NCBI RefSeq assembly: GCF_021391675.1
Contig: NZ_CP090096.1
Coordinates: 992,001-1,056,000, forward strand
DNA: 64,000 bases
Source: Neorhizobium galegae
GTDB taxonomy: Bacteria > Pseudomonadota > Alphaproteobacteria > Rhizobiales > Rhizobiaceae
Direction of reading: 5' to 3'
Under the pieces are notes generated by a model that saw only the letters and a list, made by a program, of their open reading frames with translations, ran no database searches and was not told the DNA's origin. Positions 9,330-33,830 of the stretch are shown here, in pieces. The position numbers and the translations under genes were made by a program. The first letter of the stretch is position 1, and each line of letters begins with the position of its first letter.

Positions 9330-9348
9330 TGAAACTCCTCCTAATGCG

Positions 9349-10407: not shown

Positions 10408-10438
10408 ACCCGTCGACTCCGTCTTCGTTGCGCCATGT

Positions 10439-11419: not shown

Positions 11420-11465
11420 GATACTCTCTCTTTTCTGTCTCAGATCTGGAATGGGCGTGTACAGG

Positions 11466-12698: not shown

Positions 12699-12708
12699 GG
12701 AACTGCCT

Positions 12709-16590: not shown

Positions 16591-16600
16591 GGGCGTATCC

Positions 16601-17548: not shown

Positions 17549-17606
17549 CGATTTCCTCCATTGTGATGTAGATGATGGTTTGTCGATACCCGTGTGGCGG
17601 GCTTTC

Positions 17607-18374
17607 CTAAAGGCAGGTTGTGATACCGCCGTCGACATAGAGCGTGTGTCCGTTCACAAAGGAGGAAGCCTTGCCGGCAAGAAACACCGCTGCCCCGACG
17701 AGCTCCTCGACATCGCCCCAGCGGGCTGCCGGTGTGCGTTTCTCAAGCCAGGACGAGAATTCCGGGTTATCGACCAGCGCCTGGTTCAAGGGTGTCTTGA
17801 AGTAGCCGGGCGCAATCGCGTTGATTTGCAGGCCGTGCTTTGCCCAATCCGCGCACATGCCGCGTGTCAGGTTCTTCACCGCGCCCTTGGTGGCCGTGTA
17901 GGGAGCGATGCCGGGGCGTGCCAGCTCGCTCTGCACCGAGGCGATGTTGACGATCTTCCCCTGCCCTCGGCCGATCATGTGGCGTGCCACCGCCTGGCCG
18001 ACATAGAAGACACTGGAGACGTTGGTCTTCATGAGCTGCTCCCAGCGATCAGCCGGAAACTCCTCCAGCGGGCTGCGGAACTGCATTCCGGCATTGTTGA
18101 CCAGGATGTCGATCGCACCAACTTCGGCCTCGATCGCGTTGACGCCGCGTTTGACGGCATCGGGATCGGTAACGTCGAAGTCGGCAGCCCTCGCCTCATA
18201 GCCTTCATTCTCCAGGCTATCGACGGCGACCTGAAGCTTCACAGGGTCGCGGCCGTTCAGCACGACCGAAGCCCCATGCCGCGCAAGCCCTCGCGCAAGC
18301 GCCAGCCCTATGCCCTGCGACGAACCCGTCACCAACGCACGCCGGCCGGCCAAATCAAATAATGGGAAGGTCAT
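17607..18374 (-). CDS. idnO: SDR oxidoreductase, 5-keto-D-gluconate 5-reductase-like
   Basis: The 255-residue short-chain dehydrogenase has the TGxxxGIG motif ('VTGSSQGIGLALARGL'), 'NNAG' near residue 93, a catalytic serine in 'NIASVQSE' and YxxxK as 'YTATKGAV'. The ending 'VNGHTLYVDGG' and overall similarity fit gluconate 5-dehydrogenases. With the IdnD-like enzyme it would interconvert L-idonate, 5-ketogluconate and D-gluconate. The upstream gap to the RraA-like gene is 57 bases. Substrate assignment is moderate. Confidence 0.75.
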   Translation of the reverse strand: MTFPLFDLAGRRALVTGSSQGIGLALARGLARHGASVVLNGRDPVKLQVAVDSLENEGYEARAADFDVTDPDAVKRGVNAIEAEVGAIDILVNNAGMQFRSPLEEFPADRWEQLMKTNVSSVFYVGQAVARHMIGRGQGKIVNIASVQSELARPGIAPYTATKGAVKNLTRGMCADWAKHGLQINAIAPGYFKTPLNQALVDNPEFSSWLEKRTPAARWGDVEELVGAAVFLAGKASSFVNGHTLYVDGGITTCL

Positions 18375-18431: not shown

Positions 18432-19106
18432 TCAGATATCGACGATCAGACCCTTGGCTTTCAGTACCGGCTCCAGATTGCTGACCTCGATCACCGACTT
18501 GCCCTGCTTGTAGGCCGCGATATAGCCGGCTTCGGCATCCTCGCGGGCCTCGGAAAGCCTTGCGGCCTCCTGTGCTTCCGCGCGGCGGACGACGACCAGC
18601 CCATCGGCATCGCCGACGATGATGTCGCCCGGATTGATCGTCTCGCCCCCGACGATGATAGTATCGTTCACCGCCGCAATGGTTTCCTTGACGGTGCCCT
18701 TGATGCAGACGCTCAGGGAAAAGACCGGAAAGCCGAGGTCCCTCAGCTGCAGCGTGTCGCGCACGCCCGTGTCAGTCACCAGGCCGCCGATACCCTTTGC
18801 CAGGCAGGCATTGGCGAGAACGTCACCGAACGAGCCGGCCTCTTCGTATTCGCCGGCGGACACGACGATGATGTCACCCGGCTTTGCATAGTTGATCGCG
18901 AGCTGAAGCATGATGTTGTCGCGCGGCGCGCATTTGACCGTGAAGGCCGGGCCGCACAGCTTCATCCGGTAATCCACTGGCTTCAGGCGGGAGGAGAGCG
19001 CTCCGCGGCGTCCCTGCGCTTCGTGGATGGTAGCTGGCGAAAATTTGGAAAGAGCCTCGATGTCGGCGTTGCTCGGCCGTTCGGCGATATCTTTTATGTG
19101 GATCAT
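18432..19106 (-). CDS. RraA-like protein (4-hydroxy-4-methyl-2-oxoglutarate aldolase/demethylmenaquinone methyltransferase-like)
   Basis: This 224-residue protein belongs to the RraA fold family. It shows 'ISPATIHEA'-type N-terminal sequence, 'CAPRDNIMLQLAINYAKPGDIIVV' and the metal/pyruvate site 'GGLVTDTGVRD', with the conserved R and D found in HMG/oxaloacetate aldolases. Members include class II pyruvate aldolases and the RNase E inhibitor RraA. Inside a sugar-acid operon an aldolase or oxaloacetate decarboxylase role is more likely than RNase control. It lies between the solute-binding protein gene and the idnO-like SDR. Confidence 0.8.
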   Translation of the reverse strand: MIHIKDIAERPSNADIEALSKFSPATIHEAQGRRGALSSRLKPVDYRMKLCGPAFTVKCAPRDNIMLQLAINYAKPGDIIVVSAGEYEEAGSFGDVLANACLAKGIGGLVTDTGVRDTLQLRDLGFPVFSLSVCIKGTVKETIAAVNDTIIVGGETINPGDIIVGDADGLVVVRRAEAQEAARLSEAREDAEAGYIAAYKQGKSVIEVSNLEPVLKAKGLIVDI

Positions 19107-19200: not shown

Positions 19201-20037
19201 TCAGGGGATCGGGTCGAACTTCAGTTCGGAAAGCGGCACGACCTTGTCGTTACGCGTCATCTTGTATTCGGTATTCGGGCCAAGCCATTTGTCCCAGATC
19301 TTGTTGAGTTCGCCGGACGTATCGAGCTTGCGGAGCACCTCGTTGATCTTGGCCGTCAGGGCCGGATTGTCCTTTGCCATGCCGATGCCGATCGGCTGGA
19401 ACAGCATCGGATCCTCGATCATCCGCATTTCCTTGCCCTTGGTCTTGGATTCGTTGACGAATTTTGTCGTCGTCATCGTGTTCGCCACCATGCCGCGTGC
19501 CTTGCCCTGCTGGACGGCAAGATAGGCGGATGCGGTATCCTGGAAGGTCAGCGGATCGGACTTGTTGAGCTTGATCGACATTTCCGAAGTCGAGCCCTTG
19601 GTCGAGGCGATGCGCTGGCCTTCGTAGTCGGCCTTCTTCTTGCCGGGGTCATCGGCCGGGACGATCAGCATTTCCTTGGCGAGATAGTAGGGATCGCTGA
19701 ACTGGATCTGTTCCGCGCGGCTCAGCGTATAGGCAAGATTTGCGACCGTGATGTCCACGCGGCCGAGCTTGACTTCCGGCACGCGCGCCTCGACCGAGAC
19801 CGGCTTGACTTCGGCTTTGACGCCCAGTTCCTTGGCAATCGCATTGCAGAGGTCGACGTCGAAGCCGGCCATTTCGCGCGTCTTCGGATCGGGTGCTGCG
19901 AAAGGCACCACGTCGGCAAACGTCGCGCAGCGAAGCGTCTTGGCAGACATGATCGTGTCGAGTTGATCCGCCTTTGCCGGCAAGGCTGCCGAGGCACCTG
20001 CCAGCACGGCGGTAAGAGTTACAAATTTCCAGTTCAT
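19201..20037 (-). CDS. Amino-acid-type ABC transporter, substrate-binding protein
   Basis: A 278-residue family 3 solute-binding protein. The first 23 residues are a signal peptide ending in 'LPAKA', followed by the two-lobed domain with 'TLRCATFADVVPFAAPDP', 'MAGFDVDLCNAIAKELG' and 'VDITVANLAYTLSRAEQIQFSDPY'. It is periplasmic and delivers ligand to the two permeases encoded upstream. Family 3 usually binds polar amino acids, but the operon's sugar-acid enzymes leave open another small acidic ligand. It is 38 bases downstream of the ATPase gene. Confidence 0.9.
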   Translation of the reverse strand: MNWKFVTLTAVLAGASAALPAKADQLDTIMSAKTLRCATFADVVPFAAPDPKTREMAGFDVDLCNAIAKELGVKAEVKPVSVEARVPEVKLGRVDITVANLAYTLSRAEQIQFSDPYYLAKEMLIVPADDPGKKKADYEGQRIASTKGSTSEMSIKLNKSDPLTFQDTASAYLAVQQGKARGMVANTMTTTKFVNESKTKGKEMRMIEDPMLFQPIGIGMAKDNPALTAKINEVLRKLDTSGELNKIWDKWLGPNTEYKMTRNDKVVPLSELKFDPIP

Positions 20038-20075
20038 TGCTGTTCTCCTTTGTTTTTAGTCGTTGGTCGTGAATG

Positions 20076-20843
20076 TCAATGGCGCAGATCGGCGAGGAAC
20101 CGCTGAGCACGGGGATGGCGGGGGGTCTTGAAAAACTCCCCGGGCGGGGCCGTTTCGAGGATCTGTCCGGCATCGATGAACCAGATGCGGTCGGCGACAT
20201 CGCGGGCGAAGCCCATTTCGTGCGTCACGCAGATCATGGTCATGCCTTCGGATGCCAGGCTCTTCATGACCGCCAGCACCTCGCCCACCATTTCCGGATC
20301 GAGCGCGCTGGTCGGCTCGTCGAACAGCATGACAGGGGGCTCCATGGCGAGTGCGCGCGCTATCGCCACCCGCTGCTGCTGGCCACCCGACAGCTGCCCG
20401 GGATAGGCCCGCGCCTTGTCGGCAAGCCCGACGCGTTCGAGAAGCTTGAGCGCCTTGTCATGGGCGACATCCGCCGCCACGCCCTTCACGCGGATCGGCG
20501 ACATCGACACATTTTCGACGACGGAGAGATGCGGGAACAGGTTGAAGTTCTGGAATACGAAACCGATCCGGCTGCGCAGCAGATTGAGTTCCCTCGTCCG
20601 CATTGCCGCATGAATGTTCTGACCATCGAGGGTGATCGATCCGCTATTGATCTCCTCGAGACGGTTGATCGTACGGATCAGGGTGGACTTCCCCGAACCG
20701 GAAGGCCCGCAGATCACCACAACCTCGCCCCGTGCGACTTCCGCTTCGATATTCTTGAGGACCGGATAGTCGCCATAGCTTTTGCAAACGTCCGAAAGGC
20801 GGATCGTCTGCACCTGCTGGATCTCCGCTGCTGAGGTGCTCAT
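20076..20843 (-). CDS. Amino-acid-type ABC transporter, ATP-binding protein
   Basis: The 255-residue ATPase has Walker A 'GPSGSGKST' near residue 46, the Q-loop in '[10 protein letters not shown]', signature 'LSGGQQQR' and Walker B '[12 protein letters not shown]', all typical of the GlnQ/HisP branch. ATG at 20843 overlaps the stop of the preceding permease by 4 bases; the frame remains open far upstream but only over the permease gene. It energises the importer formed with the two adjacent permeases and the periplasmic binding protein. Confidence 0.92.
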
Positions 20844-21598
20844 AGCTGCTCCGATATGATTTTGGCCGGCACGAGTTCCACCGGTGCCGCGCCGCCGGAC
20901 AGACCTGCACGGCGACGCGTGATGCGGCGCTCGACGATGTTGGCGACATGCGTCAGGCTCCAGCAGATCGCGTAGTAGACGACCGCGAGGATGAAGAAGA
21001 CCTGGAAGGGCTGCGTCAGAAGCTGGTTGTTGACCTGGCTTGCCGCGAACGTAAGGTCCGGGACATTGATGACATATCCGAGCGTCGTATCCTTTATCGT
21101 CGAGACGAAGGTCGAGATGATGCTCGGAATCATGTTGTAGAGCGCCTGCGGAAGGATGATGAAGCGCATCGCTCCGAGAGAGCTGTGTCCGAGTGCGCGG
21201 GCGGCATCCATCTGGCCGCTGCCGAGTGCGACAATGCCGGCACGCACGACCTCGCTGAGGAAAGCTCCCTGGTACACGACGAGCGTGGTCAGCATCGTCA
21301 CGAAGCTCGGAACGTCCGCTCCCGTCCAAAGCGGGACGAGGAAATAGCTCCAGAGGATGAGCATCAGCAGCGGCACGCCGCGGGTTACGTAGACAAGCCC
21401 CGTGACCGGCCACCGCAGCAGCCGCCATTTCGACAGCCGCGCCAAGGCAAGTATAATGCTGACAGGGAAAGCGAGCATGATGCTGAACGCCGACAGGATC
21501 AGCGTATTTGCAAGTCCGCCCAGCGGGCCGTTCGGATATTGACCGATCAGCAGCAGAAGCCAGTAGTCCTGGATGATGGCGATGACATCGTTGATCAT
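20840..21598 (-). CDS. Amino-acid-type ABC transporter permease
   Basis: This 252-residue membrane protein of the HisM/GlnP type has about five hydrophobic helices and the segment '[40 protein letters not shown]'-like region (visible as '[14 protein letters not shown]' near residue 150), the loop that contacts the ATPase. It overlaps both neighbours by 4 bases (ATGA), which indicates translational coupling. It forms a heterodimer with the permease encoded just upstream. Confidence 0.9.
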
Positions 21599-22302
21599 GC
21601 GCGTGCACTCCGGACCGGATCGGCACGCATCGAGAGATAGGCGCCGGCGCCCATGATCAGGAGCGAGAAGAACAGGTAAAGAACCGTGCCGACCAGGTAG
21701 ATTTCGAAGGTGCGGAAGCTCAGGTTCTCGACTTCCTTCACGGCGTGCGTCAGTTCCGACGCACCGATGACGATGGCGAGACTGCTGTTCTTGAACAGGG
21801 AAACACTATGGTTGATGAGCGGAGGAAACGCATTGCGCACGCCCTGGGGCATGATTACGAAGCGCATCGCCGAGACATAGCTGTGCCCGAGAGCTTTCGC
21901 GGCTTCCATCTGGCCCGGGCTTACGGAGCGAAGGCCGGACCGCAGGTCCTCGCTGAAATAGGCTGCCTGGCACAGGCCGAGGCCGATGACGGCGAAGATC
22001 GTTTCGGCATTGTGTGCCGCGAGCCAGGAGGTCAGGCCTGGCGGAAACAGGGTGAATATGCCGAAATACCACAGCATCAGCTGCACGAGGGTCGGCACGT
22101 TGCGATGGTAGGAGACATAGGCGGCCACGGCCCTGCCGCCAAAGCGGAGCGGTGAAAACCGGATGCACAGAAGCAGGAGCGCGAGCGTCATGGCCAGCAG
22201 CCACGACCCGATATAGATGACAAAGGTCATCTCGATGCCGTGCAAGAGCATCGCGGTATATTCGGGGTTCCTCAGAATAGCCGAGAGATCGAACCCGTTC
22301 AC
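21595..22302 (-). CDS. Amino-acid-type ABC transporter permease
   Basis: The 235-residue partner permease has the same HisQ/HisM architecture, with '[20 protein letters not shown]' as the ATPase-contact loop and several hydrophobic helices. It overlaps the SDR gene upstream and the second permease downstream by 4 bases each. The tight coupling makes the SDR and transporter one transcription unit. Confidence 0.9.
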
Positions 22303-23081
22303 CGCCCCGGCTCCTTGGAAATGTCCGGACCTGCCGGTGCAAGCTGCGGCCGGGCCGTCTGCAGGCCGCCCATGACCTGCAATGTCGGCGTGATCTCCAT
22401 GTGGCCGATATTGACCGCGACCGGCGCGGCGATCGCAAACGCTATCGCTTCGGCGATATCGGCTGCCTGGGGCAGCTCGAAACCATCGATGAACCTTTCC
22501 CGGACACTGGGATCGTCGCCGTGCACGTGATTGAAAATGTCCGTCGCGACCCGCCCGGGGCAGATTTCCGTCACCCGCACGCGCTTGCCGAACGCGTCGA
22601 TGCGCAGCTGGTTTGACAGCATGGCGACGCCGGCTTTGACGGCGTGATAGATGGAGTTGCCGCCGAAATTGTAGTTGCCGGCGATCGAGGAAATGTTGAT
22701 GACATGGCCTCGATCGCGAGCGACCATTCCCGGCACGATCAGACGGCAGATGTGCAGGACCGCACGGAGATTGACATCAACGAGGAGGTCGATATCGCCC
22801 TCGTCCGCTTCCAGGAATTTCTTCGGCCGGTCGACGCCGGCATTGTTGACAAGAATATCGAACTCGACGCGACCGGCGAGTTCGGCGAGTGCCGGGCGGT
22901 CGGTAACGTCGATGACATGAGCGATGCAGCCCGTGCGTTTGGCCAGATCCCGCAGAGCATCGCCGCTACGGGCGATCGCGTGGACCTCGATATTCTCACG
23001 GCGAAGCCGCTCCACCACAGCGGCGCCGATACCGGAGGAAGCGCCGGTAACCAGTGCGGTCTTGTAATCGGAGAATGGCAT
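22299..23081 (-). CDS. SDR family oxidoreductase
   Basis: The 260-residue short-chain dehydrogenase carries 'VTGASSGIGAAVVERL' at residues 11-26, 'NNAG' near 84, catalytic serine in 'NISSIAGNYN' and YxxxK as 'YHAVKAGV'. It resembles NADP-dependent dehydrogenases such as serine/3-hydroxy acid dehydrogenases. It is the first gene of the operon that continues with the ABC transporter, and diverges from the LysR gene across 213 bases. The substrate is unknown but is likely the compound imported by the transporter. Confidence 0.82.
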   Translation of the reverse strand: MPFSDYKTALVTGASSGIGAAVVERLRRENIEVHAIARSGDALRDLAKRTGCIAHVIDVTDRPALAELAGRVEFDILVNNAGVDRPKKFLEADEGDIDLLVDVNLRAVLHICRLIVPGMVARDRGHVINISSIAGNYNFGGNSIYHAVKAGVAMLSNQLRIDAFGKRVRVTEICPGRVATDIFNHVHGDDPSVRERFIDGFELPQAADIAEAIAFAIAAPVAVNIGHMEITPTLQVMGGLQTARPQLAPAGPDISKEPGR

Positions 23082-23294
23082 TCGGATCCCCTTGTTGTTG
23101 CGAATGACAGTAGCGAACCTTTAATCCCTTGCCTAAGACCGATTATTTGTGGAGCAATAAGCAACGGCTATGGAGGCTCGGCTCCGCAATGTCGGTAGGT
23201 GACGGTCACCGGGCGAGATCGCAGTCGGCGGCGTTGCAAAAGAAGATCGCGTCTGCAAACATGCGTCTGCTCAGGACAAAAGACAAAAACCCGA

Positions 23295-24200
23295 ATGGAC
23301 ATCAGACGCCTCAAATCCTTCATAGTGATCGTCGACAGCGGCAGCATCACGCGCGCCGCCGACCTGCTGCATATCGCGCAGCCCGCGCTCAGCCAGCAGC
23401 TGGCGGCGCTGGAGGAGCATTTCGGCCAGAAGCTGCTGATCCGCAGCCAGCAGGGCGTCAGCATGACCGATGCGGGGCATGCGGTGTACCGCCATGCGCA
23501 GATCATTCTTCGCCAGATGGAACAGGCGCAGGCGGACGCCTCCGCCGCCGGCAACTCACTTGCCGGGCGCGTTTCCGTGGGGCTCGTGCCGTTCAGCAGT
23601 GCCGCCACGTTGTCCGTCGACCTGCTGGCCGAAACGCGTAGGCGCCATCCCGGCATCCTGCTCCATCTCACAGAAAGCGTCGGCCAGACCTACAGTCAGA
23701 TGATCATGAACGGCCGGCTGGAAATGGCGCTGATCCACGGGGCCGGGCCGATCAAGGGTGTGCGGTTCGAGCCTATCCTCAGCGAGGAGTTCTATCTCGT
23801 CGCCCACCGCGATTTCGCGATCGAATCGGATAACAAGCCCATTCCGATTGCCGCTCTCGACGGATTGCCGCTTCTGATGCCGCCCGCTTACAACTTCGTT
23901 CGCCGTGCGGTCGACACCGCCTTCACGCGCAGCCGGATCAACCTGAAGGTCGTGGCGGAAGTTGAAATCGTAAGGACTTTGGCGCGCGCCGTGGGCAGCG
24001 GTCTCGGAGCGACCATCATGCCGAAAGCCATCGCCGACCGTATCGTGACGGAATCAGGCGAGCCGCTGATCTGCCGGCTCGTTTCCCCGCGGATCGAGGA
24101 AACCCTGTCGCTCTGCATTGCCGAGCAGAACTCGCTGTCTGAGCCGGCGTTGGCGGTCAAGGATATCCTTATCGAGCTGACCGCGCGGCTGAGGACGTAA
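23295..24200 (+). CDS. LysR family regulator (Nac/CynR-like)
   Basis: The 301-residue protein starts at the ATG at 23295, where 'MDIRRLKSFIVIVDSGSITR' begins the normal LysR helix-turn-helix domain; 32 extra upstream codons lack family similarity. The effector domain follows ('LAGRVSVGLVPFSSAATL' from about residue 88). It is divergent from the SDR-ABC operon, the standard arrangement for a LysR activator of that operon. Its 3' end converges with the aminotransferase gene, 47 bases away, with no obvious terminator between. Confidence 0.9.
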   Translation: MDIRRLKSFIVIVDSGSITRAADLLHIAQPALSQQLAALEEHFGQKLLIRSQQGVSMTDAGHAVYRHAQIILRQMEQAQADASAAGNSLAGRVSVGLVPFSSAATLSVDLLAETRRRHPGILLHLTESVGQTYSQMIMNGRLEMALIHGAGPIKGVRFEPILSEEFYLVAHRDFAIESDNKPIPIAALDGLPLLMPPAYNFVRRAVDTAFTRSRINLKVVAEVEIVRTLARAVGSGLGATIMPKAIADRIVTESGEPLICRLVSPRIEETLSLCIAEQNSLSEPALAVKDILIELTARLRT

Positions 24201-24247: not shown

Positions 24248-25459
24248 TCAGCGCATGTCCCAGCAGAACTGGGCGATTCGCGCGCATCCCTCGTCCAGCA
24301 TTTCCATGCTCGTTGCGTAAGAAATGCGGAAATGGGGGCTCATGCCGTAAGCTGCGCCTTGCACCGTCGCCACATGATGTTCGTCCACGAGGGCCATGAC
24401 GAAGTCGATGTCGGTCTCGATCTTCCGCCCGCCCTTGCTGGTCTTGCCGATCAAACCGGAGATGTTGGGATAGAGGTAGAACGCGCCCTCGGGCTTGTGG
24501 CAACGCAATCCCTCCACCTGCGACAGCCGGTCCAGCACGAAATCGCGCCTCTGCTTGTAGATCGCAGCTCGCTCCTTCAGGAGATCCTGAGGCCCATTCA
24601 GCGCCGCGATGGCGGCCGCCTGCGTGACCGTGCTGATGCCGCCGCCGTTCTGGCCGTTGACGTTGCTGATCGCAGCGATCAGCTCCTTTGAGCCGCTGGC
24701 GCAGTAACCGAGCCGCCAGCCGGTCATGGCATAGGCCTTCGAGACCCCGTTCATGGTCAGGACGCGATCATAGAGCCTGGGCTCAGCATCCACGATGGTG
24801 CAGAATTCGAAACCGTCATAGACCAGATGTTCGTAGATATCGTCGGTCAGGATCCAGACATCCGGATGGCGCAGCATGACCTGCGCGATCGCCTCCATTT
24901 CCGCGCGCGAGCAGGCCGCACCGGTCGGATTGTTGGGAAAGTTCAGGATCAGCCATTTGGTACGCGGCGTGATCGCAGCTTCCAGATCCTCGGGGCGCAG
25001 TTTGAAGCCGGCCTGCTCGAAACAGGGTACGGCCACAGGAATGCCACCGGCGAACTTGACGATGTCGGCATAGCTGACCCAGGAGGGCGTTGGAATGACG
25101 ACTTCGTCGCCGGGATTGCAGGTTGCGAGCATCGTGTTGAAGATCACCTGCTTGCCGCCGGCTGATACGACGATCTGGCTGGCATCGTAGTCGAGATTGT
25201 TGTCCCGCTTGAACTTCCGGCTGATCGCCGCCTTGAGCGCCGGCGTACCATCCATCGGCGGATATTTCGTATCACCGCCAAGTGCGGCGGCATGGGCCGC
25301 CTCGATGGCATGCAGCGGCGTCGGGAAGTCCGGCTCCCCGGAGGAGAGGCTGACAACCTTGATACCCTTTGCGGCCAGTTCCCGGGCGCGCTGGGTCATG
25401 GCGGCTGAGGCGGATATGGAGACGTTTTTCAGGCGATCGGCGGTAGAAGACATCGACAT
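24248..25459 (-). CDS. PLP-dependent aminotransferase (aspartate aminotransferase class I)
   Basis: The 403-residue protein is a class I aminotransferase of the aspartate/prephenate type: 'VVSLSSGEPDFPTPLHAIEAA', 'PPMDGTPALKAAI', 'NFPNNPTGAACSR' near residue 175, the PLP lysine in 'NGVSKAYAMTGWRLGY' near 240, and the C-terminal arginine in 'FRISYATS'. It transfers amino groups between aspartate or a related amino acid and 2-oxoglutarate. It is the last gene of the pxp/acc operon, 53 bases after pxpA, so it may act on an amino acid released by that system. An ATG two codons in is an alternative start. Confidence 0.88.
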   Translation of the reverse strand: MSMSSTADRLKNVSISASAAMTQRARELAAKGIKVVSLSSGEPDFPTPLHAIEAAHAAALGGDTKYPPMDGTPALKAAISRKFKRDNNLDYDASQIVVSAGGKQVIFNTMLATCNPGDEVVIPTPSWVSYADIVKFAGGIPVAVPCFEQAGFKLRPEDLEAAITPRTKWLILNFPNNPTGAACSRAEMEAIAQVMLRHPDVWILTDDIYEHLVYDGFEFCTIVDAEPRLYDRVLTMNGVSKAYAMTGWRLGYCASGSKELIAAISNVNGQNGGGISTVTQAAAIAALNGPQDLLKERAAIYKQRRDFVLDRLSQVEGLRCHKPEGAFYLYPNISGLIGKTSKGGRKIETDIDFVMALVDEHHVATVQGAAYGMSPHFRISYATSMEMLDEGCARIAQFCWDMR

Positions 25460-25512
25460 GATCTTTCGATACGAATTGGAACGGAGACCGCCGGCCTGGC
25501 GGTCGGGATGCG

Positions 25513-26280
25513 TTAAAGCGCGAGGTCGGCAGCCGGCGCGAGCATCGCGCCGGAGGCTTCGATCTCGCTTCGGACGATATGCGCAAGCTCAAGGGAACCC
25601 GGTGTGTCGCTGTGCACGAGGATCGACCGCGCCGGCATCGCTATGACGCCTCCGTCGATGGTTTCGACGGTTCCGTCGAGAAGAAAGCGGCGCACCCTCG
25701 CCCGCACCGAAGCCTCATCCTTGATGACAGCGCCGGGGAGGCCGCGGGCAACAAGCCTGCCGGCGGCATCATAGGCCCGGTCGGCCAGAAAGAGAGCGAG
25801 CGTCTTCAACCGTGCGCGTTTGGCCGCCTGCTCTATTTCGCTGTCGGGCGTCACGAACACGACGAGGCTCGTGTCCACTGCGGCAATTGCATCCATCATC
25901 AAATCGGCGAGGACAGGATCGCGGTTGACCATATTGCCCATGGCGGCATGGAAACTGATATGCCTGACGGCAACGCCCTCGCTCGCGGCGATCGCCTTGA
26001 GGGCGCCAAGCTGATAGAGCATCTGCTGGCGCAGTTCATCCGCCTGGAAAGGCATCTCGCGCCGTCCAAAGCCAAGCCGGTCGGGCAGGCCCGGATGTGC
26101 GCCGATGCCGACACCGTTCGCCTTGGCAAGCCGCACCATGCGCGCCATCGTATCCGGATCGCCACCGTGGAAACCGCAAGCGATATTGGCCGACGACACG
26201 ACCTTCATCATCGCCTCGTCGTCGCATAGCCGATAAGGGCCGAACCCTTCGCCCATGTCGGAATTCAGATCGATTTTCAC
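25513..26280 (-). CDS. pxpA: LamB/YcsF family protein, 5-oxoprolinase subunit A
   Basis: The 255-residue product has the LamB/YcsF signature from its first residues: 'IDLNSDMGEGFGPY', 'SANIACGFHGGDP' near residue 40 and 'GIGAHPGLPDRLGFGRR'. PxpA works with PxpB and PxpC in ATP-dependent opening of 5-oxoproline. GTG at 26280 has GGGAG six bases upstream; TTG two codons earlier is less well placed. It is 27 bases after pxpC. Because biotin carboxylase and carrier genes share the operon, the substrate may be another lactam or amide. Confidence 0.88.
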   Translation of the reverse strand: MKIDLNSDMGEGFGPYRLCDDEAMMKVVSSANIACGFHGGDPDTMARMVRLAKANGVGIGAHPGLPDRLGFGRREMPFQADELRQQMLYQLGALKAIAASEGVAVRHISFHAAMGNMVNRDPVLADLMMDAIAAVDTSLVVFVTPDSEIEQAAKRARLKTLALFLADRAYDAAGRLVARGLPGAVIKDEASVRARVRRFLLDGTVETIDGGVIAMPARSILVHSDTPGSLELAHIVRSEIEASGAMLAPAADLAL

Positions 26281-26307
26281 CGGCAACTCCCTTTGACCGA
26301 TCGTATT

Positions 26308-27303
26308 TCAGGCCATCGCCCTCAAGGCGCGTTTGACCATCCCTGATGTGGTCCGGACGTCTTCGACATAGCGGGCAACCGCCTGCTCCACCGCGCGCGC
26401 CTCCGCATGCGTGGACCGCACGAACCGCAAGCGGCTGCCTATGCGGGCCTGGCCAAGCCGCCAAAGGTCGCATTCGATCACGCCGGCGATCTTCGGATAG
26501 CCACCCGCTGTGTTCGCATCGCTCATCTGGACAATGGGCTCCCCACCGGGCGGAACCTGGATCACACCGGGCACGATCCCATGAGAACGCATCTCAATCG
26601 ACGCCGTCGGTTTGATGGGCTCGCCCGACAGACGATAGCCAGTGCGGTCGCTGCGGGAAGAAATCTTCCAGGTCTGGCTCCAGAAGGCGTCGCCGTCATC
26701 GGGAAACAGGGCATGCTCGCCACCAGGCAGGGCACGGACCGGCAGGGCGCCGTCAACGAGATCCGGAAAGACCTCCCGGAGCGCCACGGCGGGCTCGATG
26801 ACGGCCAAGCCGTTCGCCGGCACGGGGGCAAGGTCGGTGCTGTTACCGAACGCGATCCGATCGCCCTTTTCCAGTGGCCGGCCGGCATTGCCGCCAAAGC
26901 TGCCGCGCAGTGATGTACTGCGCGACCCCATCACCGACGGGACATCCAGCCCCCCGCCGATGGAAACATAGGCGCGCGCAAGTGTCGGAGGATGCTTCAG
27001 TTCGAGCACCTGTCCGGCCTCCGCCGTATAGGCGCACCAGGGAAGCAATTCCAACGCATCCAGTAGCGGATCGCCGTCGGCGCCCGTAACTGCGAAGACG
27101 GTCCGGCGGTCGAAACGCAGGCTGAACGGAAAGGTCTGCACCTCTATCCCGGCCGCGCCCTCGTCATTCCCGACAAGAATATTACCTATCCTCATGGCGA
27201 GCGGATCCATCGCGCCGCTGGCCGAAACGCCGATATCGCGATACCCTGGCCGTCCGAGATCCTGGACCGTATTGAACGGGCCGGTTTCCACAATTTCGAT
27301 CAT
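26308..27303 (-). CDS. pxpC: Biotin-dependent carboxyltransferase family protein, 5-oxoprolinase subunit C (AHS2/KipA)
   Basis: A 331-residue protein of the AHS2 family: 'TVQDLGRPGYRDIGVSASGAMDPLAMRIGN' near the start (seen as 'DLGRPGYRDIGVSASG'), then 'VEIQTFPF'-like core and 'VPPGGEPIVQMSDANTAGGYPKI' near residue 250. In urea carboxylase the AHS1-AHS2 pair is the carboxyltransferase domain; in Pxp it is the oxoprolinase C subunit. It overlaps pxpB by 4 bases (ATGA). The neighbouring biotin enzymes make the carboxyltransferase reading possible here. Confidence 0.88.
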   Translation of the reverse strand: MIEIVETGPFNTVQDLGRPGYRDIGVSASGAMDPLAMRIGNILVGNDEGAAGIEVQTFPFSLRFDRRTVFAVTGADGDPLLDALELLPWCAYTAEAGQVLELKHPPTLARAYVSIGGGLDVPSVMGSRSTSLRGSFGGNAGRPLEKGDRIAFGNSTDLAPVPANGLAVIEPAVALREVFPDLVDGALPVRALPGGEHALFPDDGDAFWSQTWKISSRSDRTGYRLSGEPIKPTASIEMRSHGIVPGVIQVPPGGEPIVQMSDANTAGGYPKIAGVIECDLWRLGQARIGSRLRFVRSTHAEARAVEQAVARYVEDVRTTSGMVKRALRAMA

Positions 27304-28007
27304 AGCTCGATCCTTGCCGGCACGAACCGCACCGTATCGCCCGGCGCCATCATCGCCGGCTTGGGCGACGCCGGGTCGAACATCTGCAGTTCTGCGAAAC
27401 CTATGGAATTCCAGCCGTTCGGGCCGGTAAGCATCGCAACGCCGGTCTGCATGCCGCCAATGGTCACGCAGCCCTTCGCCATCTTCAGCGACGGCACGGT
27501 CTTTCGCGGCATGTAGATGCGCGGATCCAGGCCATGCAGATAACCGAAGCCCGGAGCGCTGCCCAAGGCAAAAACACGGTAGGTCGCTTCGTGATGAATA
27601 CGGACGATCTCACGGTCGCTGAGGCGGGCAATGTCGCAAAGCGCAGGCAGGTCCACCGCATGCTCCCCGCCGTAGTGAACAGGGATTTCGATCGTCTTTC
27701 CATCCAGATCGATGCTGCGGGCATTGTCCCACGCCTCCAGCAGCCGCACTACGACGGCCTCGGGATCCTGCGGCGCCTCCTGGAATATCGTCAGAAGGTT
27801 GGTCATTCCCGGAACGATTTCCGCGATATCCGGCCAGCCTCCGACCGCCTGGGACAGCGCCCAGATCCGGCGCTGCGCGGCGAGATCGAATTCTCCCGGT
27901 GCTTCGAGCAGGAAGGACCGGGCTCCGATCGAGGAAACGCGAGCACGGCCTTGGGCGGCGGATACGATTTCGCGCAACGGCGTGTGGTTGTTCAATGTGG
28001 CAATCAT
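27300..28007 (-). CDS. pxpB: 5-oxoprolinase subunit B (AHS1/KipI family)
   Basis: The 235-residue protein is an AHS1/KipI-family member: 'VPVHYGGEHAVDLPALCD'-type strand (visible 'IPVHYGGEHAVDL'), 'HHEATYRVFALGSAPGFGYL' near residue 140 and 'GGMQTGVAMLTGPNGWNSIG'. It pairs with PxpC. ATG at 28007 is the start because family similarity begins just after it and it overlaps the upstream carrier-like gene by 4 bases; the frame stays open for 32 codons upstream without similarity. Confidence 0.88.
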   Translation of the reverse strand: MIATLNNHTPLREIVSAAQGRARVSSIGARSFLLEAPGEFDLAAQRRIWALSQAVGGWPDIAEIVPGMTNLLTIFQEAPQDPEAVVVRLLEAWDNARSIDLDGKTIEIPVHYGGEHAVDLPALCDIARLSDREIVRIHHEATYRVFALGSAPGFGYLHGLDPRIYMPRKTVPSLKMAKGCVTIGGMQTGVAMLTGPNGWNSIGFAELQMFDPASPKPAMMAPGDTVRFVPARIEL

Positions 28008-28432
28008 GATTGAGGCTCGATCTCGAACAGCGGATCGCCGAAGCCGACCAGCGCATCGGGTTCGGCAAGCTGCTTGGTCAATATGCCTGCGCGGCCGGCA
28101 CAAAGTGGAAGCAGGACGGGGCCGACGCGAAGGAAGCCGAGGATGTCTGCGGCGGGAACCGTTCGCGGCAGACGATCGGCGGCTGCCGAGCGCAATGGGC
28201 TGCCCGGGTAAAAATGGCCGGCCATCGGCGCCCTGACGATCACCACCGGCTGAGCCGTCGGGGCCGGTTGAGAGGTCGCGGACACATCGATCCTGGCTTC
28301 ATTCCCCGTCGCAATGACGATGCGTAACTGTCCGCCGGGCCTGGATATTTCGAGCCCGCTCACCCCGGCAGCCGTCAGCGCATCGGTGAGGAACGCGATC
28401 GTCGCGGGATCGCTAAAATCGATCCCGCTCAT
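28004..28432 (-). CDS. Biotin/lipoyl-carrier-like protein lacking the biotin-attachment lysine
   Basis: The 142-residue protein resembles acetyl-CoA carboxylase carrier subunits. It has an acidic N-terminal helix, then 'VIVRAPMAGHFYPGSPL' at about residue 65 and a closing 'VGFGDPLFEIEP'. Where carriers have the E-A-M-K turn it has 'LRVGPVLLPLCAG' with no lysine, so it should not be biotinylated. It sits between accC and pxpB with 4-base overlaps on both sides. It may be a structural or regulatory carrier paralogue. The true carrier in the operon is the gene at 29808. Confidence 0.75.
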   Translation of the reverse strand: MSGIDFSDPATIAFLTDALTAAGVSGLEISRPGGQLRIVIATGNEARIDVSATSQPAPTAQPVVIVRAPMAGHFYPGSPLRSAAADRLPRTVPAADILGFLRVGPVLLPLCAGRAGILTKQLAEPDALVGFGDPLFEIEPQS

Positions 28433-29808
28433 GACGCTCTCCGTTGTTTCAGCCATTGCTCGAGATAGTGGATATCCGTCTCGCCTCGCGCAAACGCGCT
28501 GTCCTCGAAGAGCGCACGCAGGAAGGGAATATTCGTGGAAATTCCGTCCACTCGCGTCTCGGCAAGCGCCTCGCGCATCCTTGCCATCGCCTCCGCCCTC
28601 GTCGGCGCATGAACGATCAGCTTGGCGATCAGCGAGTCGTAATAGGGTGGTACCTTGTACCCCGCATGGATATGGGTATCGACCCGTATACCGGTCCCTT
28701 CGGGAAGGGCGAGACTGGTGATGATACCGGCTGACGGCAAGAAAGTATCGGGATCCTCGGCATTGATGCGACATTCGAAGGCGTGACCCGCGCATTTAAC
28801 GTCAGCCTGGGCCAGTTCGAGCGGATCGCCCTGAGCCACTTTGATCTGCGCTTGCACGATGTCGATCCCGCTTGTCATTTCGGTGACCGGATGTTCGACC
28901 TGAAGCCGGGTATTCATCTCGATGAAATAGAAAGCGCCATCCTCGTAGAGGAATTCGAAAGTTCCGACGCCACGGTAGCCGATCTGGCGGCAGGCCTCGA
29001 CACAGGCTCTCCCGACGAGCCGGATCACATCCGGCGATATCCCGGGTGCCGGCGCCTCTTCCACGACCTTTTGATGGCGGCGCTGCATCGAGCAATCCCG
29101 GTGCCCGAGCCAGATTGCATTGCCATGGGTGTCGCAAAGGACCTGAATCTCGATATGACGCGGATGCTGAAGGAATTTTTCCATGTAGAGCGACGGCGAG
29201 CCGAAAGCTTGCCGCGCCTCCTCCCGGGTGAGCGCGACCGCCTCTTGCAGCAGACCGGCCTCCGGCACGAGACGCATGCCCCGCCCGCCGCCGCCCCCGG
29301 CAGCCTTGATGATGACGGGATAACCGATCTCCAGGGCCAGGCGCTCGACGGCGGCCGGATCGTCGGCAAGCGCCGTATCCGGCCCCGGGACACAAGGAAC
29401 TCCGGCTGCGATCATTGCCCTCTTTGCCGAGATCTTGTCGCCCATCGCCTCGATTGACGACGCGCTCGGACCGATGAACGCCAGTCCCGCTTTTTCGACG
29501 GCATCGGCGAATGCGGCATTTTCCGAGAGAAAACCATAACCGGGATGGATGGCGCCAGCCCCAGTCAACCGCGCCGCCAGAAGAAGAGCATCCTTGTTGA
29601 GGTAGCTTTTTGCCGCGCTCGATGGGCCGATGCACAGGGCGCTATCGGCGGTCTTGCCATAGGGCGCCTGCCGATCCGCTTCGGAATAGACAACGACGGT
29701 CTTGAGGCCCAGCTGCCGGCAGGCTTTCTGGATCCTGGTCGCGATCTCCCCACGATTGGCAATGAGAACCGTATCGAAACGCGGGCGACTGTCGAATGTC
29801 TCCGGCAT
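28429..29808 (-). CDS. accC: Biotin carboxylase (AccC-type)
   Basis: The 459-residue protein is a complete biotin carboxylase: 'VLIANRGEIATRI' near residue 15, 'IHPGYGFLSENAAFA', the glycine-rich ATP loop 'KAAGGGGGRGMR' near 165, 'HIEIQVLCD' and 'FIEMNTRLQVEHPVTE' near 290. It carboxylates biotin on the carrier protein with ATP and bicarbonate. ATG at 29808 overlaps the stop of the carrier gene; GTG one codon earlier is also possible. Presence with PxpB/PxpC-type carboxyltransferase subunits, and absence of AccA/AccD, argues against a fatty-acid role here. Confidence 0.92.
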   Translation of the reverse strand: MPETFDSRPRFDTVLIANRGEIATRIQKACRQLGLKTVVVYSEADRQAPYGKTADSALCIGPSSAAKSYLNKDALLLAARLTGAGAIHPGYGFLSENAAFADAVEKAGLAFIGPSASSIEAMGDKISAKRAMIAAGVPCVPGPDTALADDPAAVERLALEIGYPVIIKAAGGGGGRGMRLVPEAGLLQEAVALTREEARQAFGSPSLYMEKFLQHPRHIEIQVLCDTHGNAIWLGHRDCSMQRRHQKVVEEAPAPGISPDVIRLVGRACVEACRQIGYRGVGTFEFLYEDGAFYFIEMNTRLQVEHPVTEMTSGIDIVQAQIKVAQGDPLELAQADVKCAGHAFECRINAEDPDTFLPSAGIITSLALPEGTGIRVDTHIHAGYKVPPYYDSLIAKLIVHAPTRAEAMARMREALAETRVDGISTNIPFLRALFEDSAFARGETDIHYLEQWLKQRRAS

Positions 29809-30257
29809 CACGCGATCTCCGCGAGCAGATCACCCGTCTCGACTTCGCCGCCGTCGACTTCGGTCAGGCTGACAATACGCCCTGACCGCGGCGCGGCGAT
29901 CTTGTTGAAGACCTTCATCGCTTCAATAATGAAGAGAGTCTGCCCATCCGTCACCTCATCTCCAAGCTTGACGAACGGCTCCTCGCCCGGTGCCGAGCTG
30001 CGATGCAGCACGCCGGAGACCGGCGCTTTTACGGAAATGACCGACGCCTGGCCGATAGTCGGCAGTTCATCAGGCCCCAAGGTGATCGACGCACCTGCAA
30101 CCGGCTGTTGTCCCCGAGCCAAATCGGCGGAGGTCTCCCCCGCCGTCGGCTGCGACCGGAAGATTCGAACCGTCAGGTCCTTCTCGGTCACGGTGAGTTC
30201 GGAAATGCTCGATCGACCGACAAAGTCGATCAGGGTCTTGATCTTCGAGAGGTCCAT
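29808..30257 (-). CDS. accB: Biotin carboxyl carrier protein (AccB-type)
   Basis: The 149-residue protein has an N-terminal 'MDLSKIKTLIDFVGRSSISELTV' region like AccB, an Ala/Pro linker and a C-terminal biotinyl domain. Its attachment site is 'IIEAMKVFNK', with Lys115 as the expected biotinylated residue. It is the first gene of the carboxylase half of the operon and is followed by accC without a gap. A 313-base stretch containing inverted repeats precedes it, so the promoter for this half may be there. Confidence 0.9.
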   Translation of the reverse strand: MDLSKIKTLIDFVGRSSISELTVTEKDLTVRIFRSQPTAGETSADLARGQQPVAGASITLGPDELPTIGQASVISVKAPVSGVLHRSSAPGEEPFVKLGDEVTDGQTLFIIEAMKVFNKIAAPRSGRIVSLTEVDGGEVETGDLLAEIA

Positions 30258-30570: not shown

Positions 30571-31827
30571 TCAGCGAAAACGGGTGGCGGATAGCGCTGA
30601 TAGATCGATGGCACATTCGCGCCCAGCGATCAGTCCTGCAACAAGCGCGCCGCTAACCGGCCCGGCCGCAAGGCCGACATGACCGTGGCCAAACGCATGA
30701 ACGATATCTTCGGAAGACCTCGAAAACCCGATCACCGGAAGGCCGTCCGCAGTCGAGGGACGATGCCCCATCCACCGGTCGATGCTCTTGTCCTCGGATA
30801 TATTCGACAGTGCCGGATAGGTTCCCTTCGCGTGTTTCAGCAGAATGCCGGCGCGGGTCCAGTTCGGTCTTTCCTCGACACTTGCCAGTTCGACCTGTCC
30901 AGCAATGCGAAGTCCGGCAAGTGTCGGATTGTTGCCCATCCTGCCGTCGCTCGGCATGATCGGCATCTCCCCTTTGGCCAGATGATAGGGGACGACTACG
31001 TGGTAACCGCGCTCGCTCTGCATCGGGATTGTGTCACCGGCCAGCGCCGCAAGCTTTTTCGAATGTATTCCGGCAGCGATGACGGCCTTGTCGCACGCCA
31101 CGTTGCCCGCCTCTGTCCGGACACCGGAAAGCCGGCTGCCGGTAAGATTGAAACCGGTCGCCCTCGCGTTGATGCGCCGGGCGCCGAGGTCCACCGCATG
31201 ATCCACCATCGCTGCGACATAGCCTCCCGGATCCACGCAATGACCTCCATCCTCGACGAAGGCAGCAAAGGAATAGCGGGGTGAAAGATTCGGCTCGAGT
31301 TCGTGCAGTTCGGCCGAGGATAGCTCTCGATAGGAAACGCCGTTGTCGCGTCGCAGGCGCCACGCAAAAGCCTCTGCCTCGAAAGCCGCGCGATCCTGGT
31401 AAACGTAGAGCAGACCCTTGCGCCGGATTAGGTCCGGCCGTCCGATTTTTTCCGCCAGTGCCACATGCCGGGATGGAGCATCGTGCAGGAGGCTCGCCAG
31501 AATTCTTGCGGTCCGTTCGACCTTGGATCCAGTCGAACCGGCCAGCATGAACCGCAGCAACCAAGGCGCGAGGCGTGCCAGATGCCGCCAGCGGATGGTC
31601 AGCGGCCCGGAAGGATCGGCAAGATAACCCGGTACCTTCTTCCAGAGACCGGGCACCGACATCGGGATGATCGAGGCAGGGCTCAGCCAGCCGCTGTTAC
31701 CATAGCTTGCCGCGTGGCGCCCCCCGGGCTGTTCCGGCTCGATGACGGTGACCTCGTGCCCGTCCTTCAACAACTCGAGTGCCGTCGATGCACCGACGAT
31801 ACCCGCTCCGATGACCACTACATGCAT
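30571..31827 (-). CDS. FAD-dependent D-amino-acid dehydrogenase-like oxidoreductase (DadA family)
   Basis: The 418-residue protein starts with the FAD-binding 'VVVIGAGIVGASTALELLKDGHEVTVIE' region (motif GAGIVG at residues 7-12) and continues as a DAO-superfamily protein. 'ASYGNSGWLSPASIIPMSVPG' near residue 40 and 'GHRPSTADGLPVIGFS' near 350 are typical of DadA-type D-amino-acid dehydrogenases. It would oxidise a D-amino or imino acid to a keto acid and pass electrons to the membrane. It is 34 bases after tctA, so it should act on a product of the transported substrate. Confidence 0.85.
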   Translation of the reverse strand: MHVVVIGAGIVGASTALELLKDGHEVTVIEPEQPGGRHAASYGNSGWLSPASIIPMSVPGLWKKVPGYLADPSGPLTIRWRHLARLAPWLLRFMLAGSTGSKVERTARILASLLHDAPSRHVALAEKIGRPDLIRRKGLLYVYQDRAAFEAEAFAWRLRRDNGVSYRELSSAELHELEPNLSPRYSFAAFVEDGGHCVDPGGYVAAMVDHAVDLGARRINARATGFNLTGSRLSGVRTEAGNVACDKAVIAAGIHSKKLAALAGDTIPMQSERGYHVVVPYHLAKGEMPIMPSDGRMGNNPTLAGLRIAGQVELASVEERPNWTRAGILLKHAKGTYPALSNISEDKSIDRWMGHRPSTADGLPVIGFSRSSEDIVHAFGHGHVGLAAGPVSGALVAGLIAGRECAIDLSALSATRFR

Positions 31828-31861
31828 GGCGTTTCACTCTTCGTGACGGGAATAAGCCGGC

Positions 31862-33361
31862 TCATTCCTGAAATGCCTCTTCGCGGACGGCTTTGATCTT
31901 CGGCAGGGCGACCACGGTGATGGCGAGCACAGCCAGGACAATCAAGCCTGCTGAAATCGGACGATCGACAAAAACGCTGGGATTGCCACGTGCGAGGAAC
32001 ATCGCCCTGCGGAAATTCTCCTCCATCATCGGCCCGAGAATGAGGCCCATTACCAGTGGTGCCGGATCGCAATCAAGCTTGGCGAAGATGTAGCCGGCGA
32101 CGCCGAAGGCTCCGAGCAGCCACAGATCGAATACCGAATTGCCGAGCGAGAATGCGCCGATCGAGCAGAACACCACGATAGCCGGAAAGAGATAGTGGAA
32201 AGGCATCGTCAGCAAGCGCGTCCAGACGCCGATCAGCGGCAGGTTCAAGACCAACAGCATGACATTGCCAACCCACATCGACACGATGACGCCCCAGAAC
32301 ACATCCGGATGTTCGGAAATCAGCGTCGGGCCCGGTGCGATACCCTGCATGATCAGGGCACCGAACATCAAGGCCATGACGGCATTGGCCGGTAGACCGA
32401 GCGTGAGCAGCGGGACGAACGACGTCTGTGCACCGGCATTGTTGGCGCTCTCGGGCGCTGCTACGCCTTCGATCGCACCACCACCGAAACCTTCGGGCGG
32501 GTTGGCAACGCGTTTCTCGATGGCATAGGCAGCGAAGGCGGCGAGAAGCGCGCCGCCGCCCGGCAGAAGTCCCAGCACGGAACCGATCCCCGTACCACGA
32601 AGAATCGGCGCAACCATCCGCCGCCAGTCTTCCCGCGACGGGATCATCGAGAAGAACGGTGCGTTGATGGCCGTGCGGCTTTCCGGGGTTTCCAGATCCT
32701 TGATCAACTCGCCGATGCCGAATAATCCCATTGCCACAACGACGAAATTGATACCGCCCGACATCTCTTCAAGACCGAGCGTGAAACGCGGCACGGCCGT
32801 TTGCACGTCCTGGCCGACAAGACCGACCAGTATGCCGATGAAGACCATGGCAAGCGCCTTCGGCAGCGATCCACGCGAAAGCACAACCGAGGCGACAAGC
32901 CCCAGGATCATCAGCGAAAAGTACTCCGCGGGGCCAAACAGCAATCCGATTTCGGCAAGCGAAGGTGCAAACAATGCCAGCAACAGCGTTGCGACGGTGC
33001 CGGCGAAAAAGGAGCCGATCGCCGCTGTCGACAGTGCCACGCCCGCGCGTCCGTTGCGGGCCATCTTGTAGCCGTCTATCGCCGTAACCACAGATGATGC
33101 TTCGCCGGGAAGATTGAGAAGGATGGCTGTCGTCGACCCGCCATATTGCGCACCGTAATAGATACCGGCCATCATGATCAGCGATGTCACCGGTTCAAGT
33201 CCGATGGTGAAAGGCAGGAGGATGGCCATGGTCGCGGCAGGCCCGAGGCCCGGCAGGACGCCGACGAGGGTCCCGAGCAGCGTGCCGATCAGGCACCAGA
33301 ACAGGTTCGTCGGCAGGATTGCCTGGTCAAAGCCGAGCAGCAGGGCGTTGAGCGTCTCCAT
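31862..33361 (-). CDS. tctA: Tripartite tricarboxylate transporter, large membrane subunit
   Basis: The 499-residue protein has about ten hydrophobic segments and the TctA signatures 'GVLPGLGPAATMAILLPFT' near residue 37, 'YYGAQYGGSTTAILLNLPGEASSVVTAIDG' (from about residue 70) and 'VLGLLPGGGALLAAFAAYA'. TctA is the channel subunit of TTT importers that carry tricarboxylates and other organic acids. ATG at 33361 opens with 'METLNALLLGF', typical for TctA; the upstream frame extension has no similarity. It is 10 bases after tctB. Confidence 0.92.
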   Translation of the reverse strand: METLNALLLGFDQAILPTNLFWCLIGTLLGTLVGVLPGLGPAATMAILLPFTIGLEPVTSLIMMAGIYYGAQYGGSTTAILLNLPGEASSVVTAIDGYKMARNGRAGVALSTAAIGSFFAGTVATLLLALFAPSLAEIGLLFGPAEYFSLMILGLVASVVLSRGSLPKALAMVFIGILVGLVGQDVQTAVPRFTLGLEEMSGGINFVVVAMGLFGIGELIKDLETPESRTAINAPFFSMIPSREDWRRMVAPILRGTGIGSVLGLLPGGGALLAAFAAYAIEKRVANPPEGFGGGAIEGVAAPESANNAGAQTSFVPLLTLGLPANAVMALMFGALIMQGIAPGPTLISEHPDVFWGVIVSMWVGNVMLLVLNLPLIGVWTRLLTMPFHYLFPAIVVFCSIGAFSLGNSVFDLWLLGAFGVAGYIFAKLDCDPAPLVMGLILGPMMEENFRRAMFLARGNPSVFVDRPISAGLIVLAVLAITVVALPKIKAVREEAFQE

Positions 33362-33371
33362 GTGATCTTCC

Positions 33372-33830
33372 TTAATACCCGAACCAGGGACCGATGATGG
33401 CAAGCGGCATGCTGAGCCCCTTGATGAAGGCAAGGCTGCAGGCCGCACCGAGTCCGAGCCCGTACAAGGCTGATTTCACCGGCTGCAAAGGACGTGAGGC
33501 AAACGAGGAGATAAAGCAGCAACAGAAGACCGCTGGCAGCAATCCGCCGCCGCGAACGACCAGTCCAAACACCACGATCGCTGCAATGATGAACGTGACC
33601 TTCGAGGAATAAAGGCTCGGTCGCTCTTTACCGGTGTCATGTTTTTCTGCCGTAAAGGCGACGATAAGGCCCATGGCGATCAGGGCCGAGGCTACCAGGC
33701 CCGGAAATGCACCGGGACCGATTTTACGCCAGGTACCATAGGAGAGATCGAGGCTGCCCAACAAGAAAGCGGCGCCGATCAATACGAACAGGAGCCCTGC
33801 AATCAATTGCGGATTGAGACGTGAGGTCAT
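33372..33830 (-). CDS. tctB: Tripartite tricarboxylate transporter, small membrane subunit
   Basis: The 152-residue protein has four hydrophobic helices and the TctB pattern, with 'IAGLLFVLIGAAFLLGS' near the N-terminus and 'RKIGPGAFPGLVA' (the G-x-F-P motif common in TctB) near residue 40. ATG at 33830 overlaps the stop of the BisC-like gene by 4 bases; an ATG two codons upstream is also possible. It pairs with TctA in the membrane. Confidence 0.87.
   Translation of the reverse strand: MTSRLNPQLIAGLLFVLIGAAFLLGSLDLSYGTWRKIGPGAFPGLVASALIAMGLIVAFTAEKHDTGKERPSLYSSKVTFIIAAIVVFGLVVRGGGLLPAVFCCCFISSFASRPLQPVKSALYGLGLGAACSLAFIKGLSMPLAIIGPWFGY

Follow-up and report, generated by a model that had tools for sequence, protein, structure and literature searches.

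Here, we analyse an operon on the minus strand of a 64,000-nucleotide stretch of Neorhizobium galegae DNA (contig NZ_CP090096.1, positions 992,001 to 1,056,000; hereafter the window), which lies on contig C2 of a three-contig, 6.05-Mb genome. The operon joins a biotin carboxyl carrier protein (BCCP; AccB), a biotin carboxylase (BC; AccC) and a BCCP paralogue devoid of the biotinyl lysine (dBCCP) to PxpB, PxpC, PxpA and an aminotransferase, and we regard it as an even call that it would encode a PxpABC lactamase coupled to biotin, set in a catabolic cluster. It is reasonable to read the operon in this way because the AccB/AccC-PxpBCA-aminotransferase association is conserved, the AccC is not the housekeeping one, and PDB entry 9yx5 contains chains of comparable families. 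To this extent the original prediction, which proposed a biotin-dependent enzyme acting on a lactam or amide, is supported, while the plain urea carboxylase (UC) chemistry is disfavoured by an arginine in PxpB.

Operon layout and the lysine-less carrier

Genes were named from NCBIfam and Pfam profile scans of the window proteins; in order of transcription they are:

29808..30257, minus strand: accB, biotin carboxyl carrier protein (TIGR00531 91.7 bits, 6e-26, below the 115.2 cut-off; PF00364 1e-16)
28429..29811, minus strand: accC, biotin carboxylase (NF006367 681 bits, over cut-off), probably with its ATG start at 29808
28004..28432, minus strand: dBCCP, BCCP paralogue without biotinyl lysine (AMK replaced by VGP)
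27300..28007, minus strand: pxpB, 5-oxoprolinase subunit B / AHS1, CT_C_D (TIGR00370 170 bits, over cut-off; PF02682 202 bits)
26308..27303, minus strand: pxpC, 5-oxoprolinase subunit C / AHS2, CT_A_B (TIGR00724 292 bits, over cut-off; PF02626 281 bits)
25513..26286, minus strand: pxpA, LamB/YcsF family (NF003814 335 bits, over cut-off; PF03746), probably with a GTG start at 26280
24248..25459, minus strand: class I/II aminotransferase, aspartate-transaminase-like (PF00155; NF004769, PRK06107-like, 515 bits, under the 617 cut-off)

All the genes that had been predicted to form one operon were found in place with NCBIfam or Pfam matches, the second carrier excepted, and they are, as claimed, separate and overlapping: the first four junctions overlap, accB/accC by TGATG and accC/dBCCP, dBCCP/pxpB and pxpB/pxpC by ATGA. 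PxpA, PxpB and PxpC-type genes are thus encoded together, as in PxpABC systems, PxpC scoring 281 bits against the curated PxpC model NF045499 (cut-off 500). The biotinyl motif of AccB (EAMKVFN) is intact, with lysine in the biotinyl column of the alignment. Genome-wide, the operon contains the single CT_C_D (PxpB) match and one of the five biotin-carboxylase C-domain matches. The predicted absence of AccA/AccD nearby was borne out, no acyl-CoA carboxyltransferase being linked to the operon: all four PF01039 carboxyltransferase matches of the genome sit on contig C1.

At E 0.001, the dBCCP of the window matched neither Pfam nor NCBIfam models. It is a BCCP by profile match and by predicted fold (the biotinyl domain, in single-chain models); the original prediction took it for a carrier, although the biotinyl lysine is present in 0 of the 73 rows of its alignment. 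It shares 25% identity with the operon's AccB and 87-89% with its closest named relatives (Neorhizobium), and 'MK' occurs in only three of 144 listed relatives (P0081, P0096, P0138), away from the biotinyl site. A dBCCP-profile search of 397 Pseudomonadota genomes, scoring at most ten candidates per genome, yielded 11 matches of at least 97 bits, ten of them no more than 4 kb from a PxpC place; seven of these ten had members in the profile and three were independent (G590, G734, G497). One further match (G712, 89 bits) likewise lies next to a PxpC place, this and the G734 match being known by profile score and position rather than by sequence inspection. Ordinary AccBs score below 92 bits against the profile, except that of G676, whose 97-bit match was rejected as an ordinary AccB (EAMK present). 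Stretches resembling dBCCP were present in 172 of 72,556 plasmid records (126 of these from Rhizobium) and in none of 50,697 phage records. Public records label the family 'acetyl-CoA carboxylase' or BCCP, a naming that is misleading.

Distribution and phylogeny of the components

PxpC-centred stretches were gathered within Pseudomonadota on PxpC score and spread, regardless of their neighbours. The class sample contributed 60 (84 of 289 genomes had a match; frames of ~1,200 aa, urea carboxylases and some near-duplicates were omitted), the family sample 20 (the best 18 plus two lower; 54 of 121 genomes with a match) and the phylum sample 40 (mostly the best; 200 of 397 genomes with a match), while a scan of named genome contigs gave three loci. 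The stretches reach at most ~7.5 kb on each side, and every absence reported here refers to the fetched stretch only; accessory counts come from a wider motif test, as a narrower one mislabels L036.

Three kinds of loci were distinguished: those with pxpB-pxpC, with or without pxpA, and no acc genes; 'type II', in which the order is mostly pxpA-accB-accC-pxpB2-pxpC and PxpB2 resembles urea carboxylase; and 'type III', the kind found in the window. The 27 loci of the window's PxpC clade encode dBCCP (27), PxpA (27), PxpB (26; the stretch lacking it, L117, is cut by a contig end), AccB (24), AccC (19) and the aminotransferase (19). With dBCCP present in all 27, against 24 for AccB and 19 for AccC, no other accessory of the window-type system is as constant. 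Among 70 other loci without PxpB2, an AccB-like protein was detected in four (L009, L113, L116, L118), AccC in two (L113, L118) and a lysine-less carrier in one (L113); the 26 PxpB2 loci comprised 18 with AccB, 17 with AccC, 16 with PxpA and none with dBCCP. The gene set of the operon (AccB/AccC with PxpBCA and the aminotransferase) recurs across genera, also in named records (plasmids of Rhizobium indicum and Bradyrhizobium guangxiense), and since it recurs it is more than a chance grouping. The carrier of L113 (4897-5385; VDVLSKL) is a separate lysine-less BCCP from the same phylum, outside the PxpC clade, and maybe represents an independent loss.

In a quick PxpC tree of 113 rows and moderate support (omitting L001, L062-L073, L094, L096 and nine UC-like loci), the window falls within a 27-row clade (SH-aLRT 94, the threshold for a starred node being 95), nested in a starred 48-row group together with an 18-row set without acc genes and a three-row set (L113, L115, L116). 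The order of the subgroups in this group is unresolved, and type II sequences are separate (97). The window PxpC hence groups with those of acc-less PxpBCA loci of other Pseudomonadota. A single-sequence AlphaFold model of PxpC was set aside (pLDDT 29.9).

In an AccC tree of 41 rows the 19 type III AccCs formed a starred clade (98/96) and 14 of the 16 type II AccCs another (100/100), the remaining two (L029, L033) falling with L118. The housekeeping AccC of the genome (L137, beside an ordinary accB) lies outside both, and judging from this placement the operon AccC is a different enzyme; the AccC of L113 and the long-branched one of G676 attach beside the type III clade (99/96 for 21 rows). 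This topology suggests at least two separate events in which biotin carboxylase became linked to AHS pairs.

K1605 of Kluyveromyces lactis urea amidolyase is, according to an excerpt of PMC5770610, most likely the essential general base of the carboxyltransferase (CT) reaction. On recounting, it is the lysine of 'TKYNPSRT', which aligns with 'PKYNPPRT' of the UC-like PxpB2. In an alignment of 124 PxpB and PxpB2 rows (one genome being counted twice, as L045 and L094), this column has lysine in 27 of 28 PxpB2 and arginine in all 96 PxpB, the window included, and at this position the window protein is an ordinary PxpB rather than a UC CT domain. The arginine argues against plain UC chemistry; it would still be compatible with biotin coupling, because the AHS1 chain of 9yx5 carries the same arginine ('VPRRAEPR') and the entry also contains an AHS2 and an AccA3 chain. 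The titles of the entries 9yx0, 9yx1, 9yx2 and 9yx4 name carboxylases of M. smegmatis.

The type II split operons, in which the UC lysine is kept, are nearer to the earlier idea of a split UC than the window operon is (L004, L005, L007, L012, L014, L016, L017, L021, L023, L024, L026, L092, L093, L128). UC-like PxpB2-PxpC pairs, sometimes doubled, were seen in L009-L011, L013, L015, L018, L020, L029 and L033 (in L009, PxpC only), and a short BCCP with EVMKTEVPH or EVMKSEVNH in L009, L018, L029 and L033.

Conserved neighbourhood and putative pathway

Further conserved genes of the cluster lie outside the span of the original prediction:

23199..24200, plus strand: divergent NAC-type (nitrogen assimilation) LysR regulator, conserved (NF008410 325 bits, over cut-off)
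22299..23081, minus strand: SDR oxidoreductase, conserved (PF00106)
19201..22302, minus strand: amino-acid ABC transporter, conserved (binding protein 19201-20037, TIGR01096 139 bits, under cut-off; ATPase 20076-20837; permeases 20840-21598 and 21595-22302)
18432..19106, minus strand: RraA-type protein, 4-carboxy-4-hydroxy-2-oxoadipate aldolase/oxaloacetate decarboxylase model (NF006731, PRK09262, 215.6 bits, cut-off 179)

The ATPase and permease names were taken from annotated counterparts in L142 and L143. Binding protein, ATPase, both permeases, SDR, LysR and aminotransferase are all present in 12 of 27 loci (26 of the PxpC clade plus L113, the window excluded), as well as in L143 and L144. 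The aldolase gene directly adjoins the binding-protein gene in six of eight further genomes (none is beside it in G342, and G379 has one upstream), and in Bradyrhizobium guangxiense a different RraA-family gene adjoins the aminotransferase. The simplest reading is that a 4-hydroxyglutamate-like product would be transaminated and then undergo aldol cleavage, which is why a 4-substituted pyroglutamate is proposed as substrate.

Other neighbours were considered and dismissed as parts of the system: a D-amino-acid-dehydrogenase-like gene (30571-31827; DadA in only three of the 27 loci, 137-215 bits), TctA/TctB tricarboxylate-transporter-like genes recognised by eye upstream (window 30571-33839; in none of the 27). 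Near the operon there is also a BisC/TorA-family molybdopterin S/N-oxide reductase at 33827-36208 (TIGR00509 881 bits, under cut-off), unseen in the 27 loci, whose stretches barely reach that distance. On the other side, alcohol dehydrogenase-like (by eye), 2-hydroxyacid dehydrogenase and gluconate-5-dehydrogenase-like SDR genes (15559-18374) suggest an idonate/gluconate cluster, and intradiol dioxygenase, maleylacetate reductase, amidohydrolase and flavin hydroxylase genes, assigned by eye (8481-12764), perhaps serve hydroxyquinol/resorcylate breakdown.

Proposed mechanism, alternatives and known systems

We reason that AccC, whose gene like that of AccB is intact, would carboxylate biotin on AccB at the expense of ATP and bicarbonate, and that PxpB-PxpC, which belong to the family of the UC carboxyltransferase domains, would accept the activated carboxyl and activate the amide of a small lactam. 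PxpA, going by its family, would then open the ring; the conserved neighbourhood implies that the aminotransferase could take the released amino acid and the aldolase split the resulting 2-oxo acid. The biotin-free dBCCP, by analogy with plant BADC, most likely serves in assembly or docking without a catalytic role and would hold BC-BCCP on PxpBC. A lactam resembling 5-oxoproline is the probable substrate; the aldolase and the amino-acid transporter may indicate a 4-hydroxylated or 4-branched one.

Several observations weigh against biotin coupling. Reportedly, three recombinant Bacillus subtilis proteins suffice for PxpABC activity. The window PxpB has arginine in the column of the UC general base, and what 9yx5 contributes is its chain content. 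No accC was found in eight of the 27 clade loci, three of which (L097, L098, L117) also lacked accB: AccB and dBCCP occur without AccC in L086, L087, L089, L090 and L091, and dBCCP occurs without either in L097 and L098 (L117 is uninformative, its contig ending just upstream of pxpC). A named Rahnella sikkimica plasmid likewise shows dBCCP with neither. The accB/accC pair can thus be absent locally. The genome has three Hydantoinase_B matches, one within a 1229-aa frame that presumably resembles the eukaryotic-type oxoprolinase, so that 5-oxoproline itself may be handled without PxpABC. In the literature PxpABC figures as a 5-oxoprolinase that depends on ATP, with PxpBC assumed to phosphorylate the substrate (PMC13274462, in part).

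A usual PxpABC, in which PxpBC phosphorylates the lactam and AccB/AccC/dBCCP form a regulatory add-on (e.g., dBCCP inhibiting BC-BCCP or titrating it as a decoy), is the strongest competitor, though we judge it rather unlikely. The canonical arginine of PxpB fits it, the loci with dBCCP but without local accB/accC (L097, L098, the Rahnella plasmid) fit a regulator of the housekeeping acetyl-CoA carboxylase, and inhibition is the older model reported for plant BADC (PMC11926652, in part); the distinct AccC clade and the overlapping genes, however, suggest stoichiometric subunits more than a regulator. That AccB/AccC are instead half of an acyl-CoA carboxylase, merely co-regulated with the pxp genes and served by a distant carboxyltransferase, seems improbable: the four PF01039 matches on C1 would offer candidates, but PxpB and PxpC already belong to the AHS family of carboxyltransferase domains, the AccB/AccC linkage to pxp genes is repeated with an AccC clade of its own, and no acyl-CoA carboxyltransferase is annotated in L142 or L143, the stretches inspected for such a gene.

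The 'split urea carboxylase' of the original prediction finds no support when taken literally, and a true split enzyme with urea or a ureido compound as its substrate is highly improbable. Its domain set is identical, BC, BCCP and AHS1/AHS2 all being present as separate chains, whereas against the UC model TIGR02712 AccC scores 499, PxpC 169 and AccB 32 bits (whole-chain cut-off 1303.85). Urea was rejected as substrate on the arginine at K1605, the grouping of PxpC with acc-less PxpBCA, and the adjoining PxpA, aminotransferase and amino-acid transporter; in addition, none of the genes scanned was recognised as an allophanate-hydrolase amidase, no genome-wide search for one having been made.

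Returning to the biotin-coupled lactamase, a bolder version would hold that PxpB-PxpC are lactam biotin carboxyltransferases, that this clade carries its own BC, BCCP and a BADC-like, biotin-free docking paralogue, that relatives lacking acc genes make use of the housekeeping BC-BCCP (a hint being the AccA3 chains in 9yx5), and that the substrate is a plant-origin 4-substituted pyroglutamate rather than 5-oxoproline; we offer it as speculative and unlikely as a whole. PxpB and PxpC bear carboxyltransferase-domain names, yet are assumed to phosphorylate 5-oxoproline (PMC13274462, in part); in a lineage that encodes BC and BCCP of its own together with a conserved lysine-less BCCP, a carboxybiotin route of lactam activation becomes testable. 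In the open-licence papers searched we found neither a biotin-dependent PxpABC nor an accompanying bacterial lysine-less BCCP.

Compared with prokaryotic PxpABC, the operon shares PxpA, PxpB and a PxpC-type protein, the last grouping with acc-less PxpBCA, and adds AccB, AccC, the lysine-less paralogue and the aminotransferase. With urea carboxylase (K. lactis UC; urea amidolyase) it has the BC, BCCP and AHS1/AHS2 parts in common, but here they are separate genes, arginine replaces the catalytic CT lysine and PxpA stands alongside. The type II operons likewise link AccB and AccC to PxpA and an AHS pair; they differ in their lysine-bearing PxpB2 (27 of 28 rows), the lack of dBCCP in 26 PxpB2 loci and their separate AccC and PxpC clades. 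In Aspergillus nidulans, 2-pyrrolidinone use presumably depends on a UC-like LamA, unlike the operon a single fungal chain, and on LamB, which we take to be a PxpA-family protein. A urea carboxylase of 1,241 aa (P38095) exists in this fungus. Plant BADC, of the heteromeric acetyl-CoA carboxylase, are paralogues of BCCP that lack the AMKL biotinylation motif and share 25-30% identity with BCCP; they bind BCCP and BC and aid assembly, an inhibitor role being also argued (PMC11926652, in part). Although dBCCP is bacterial and encoded beside a lactamase, it too is a lysine-less paralogue at a similar distance from its AccB (25% identity), and the likeness is one of anatomy, in which the dBCCP family would be a bacterial counterpart of the plant BADC subunits.

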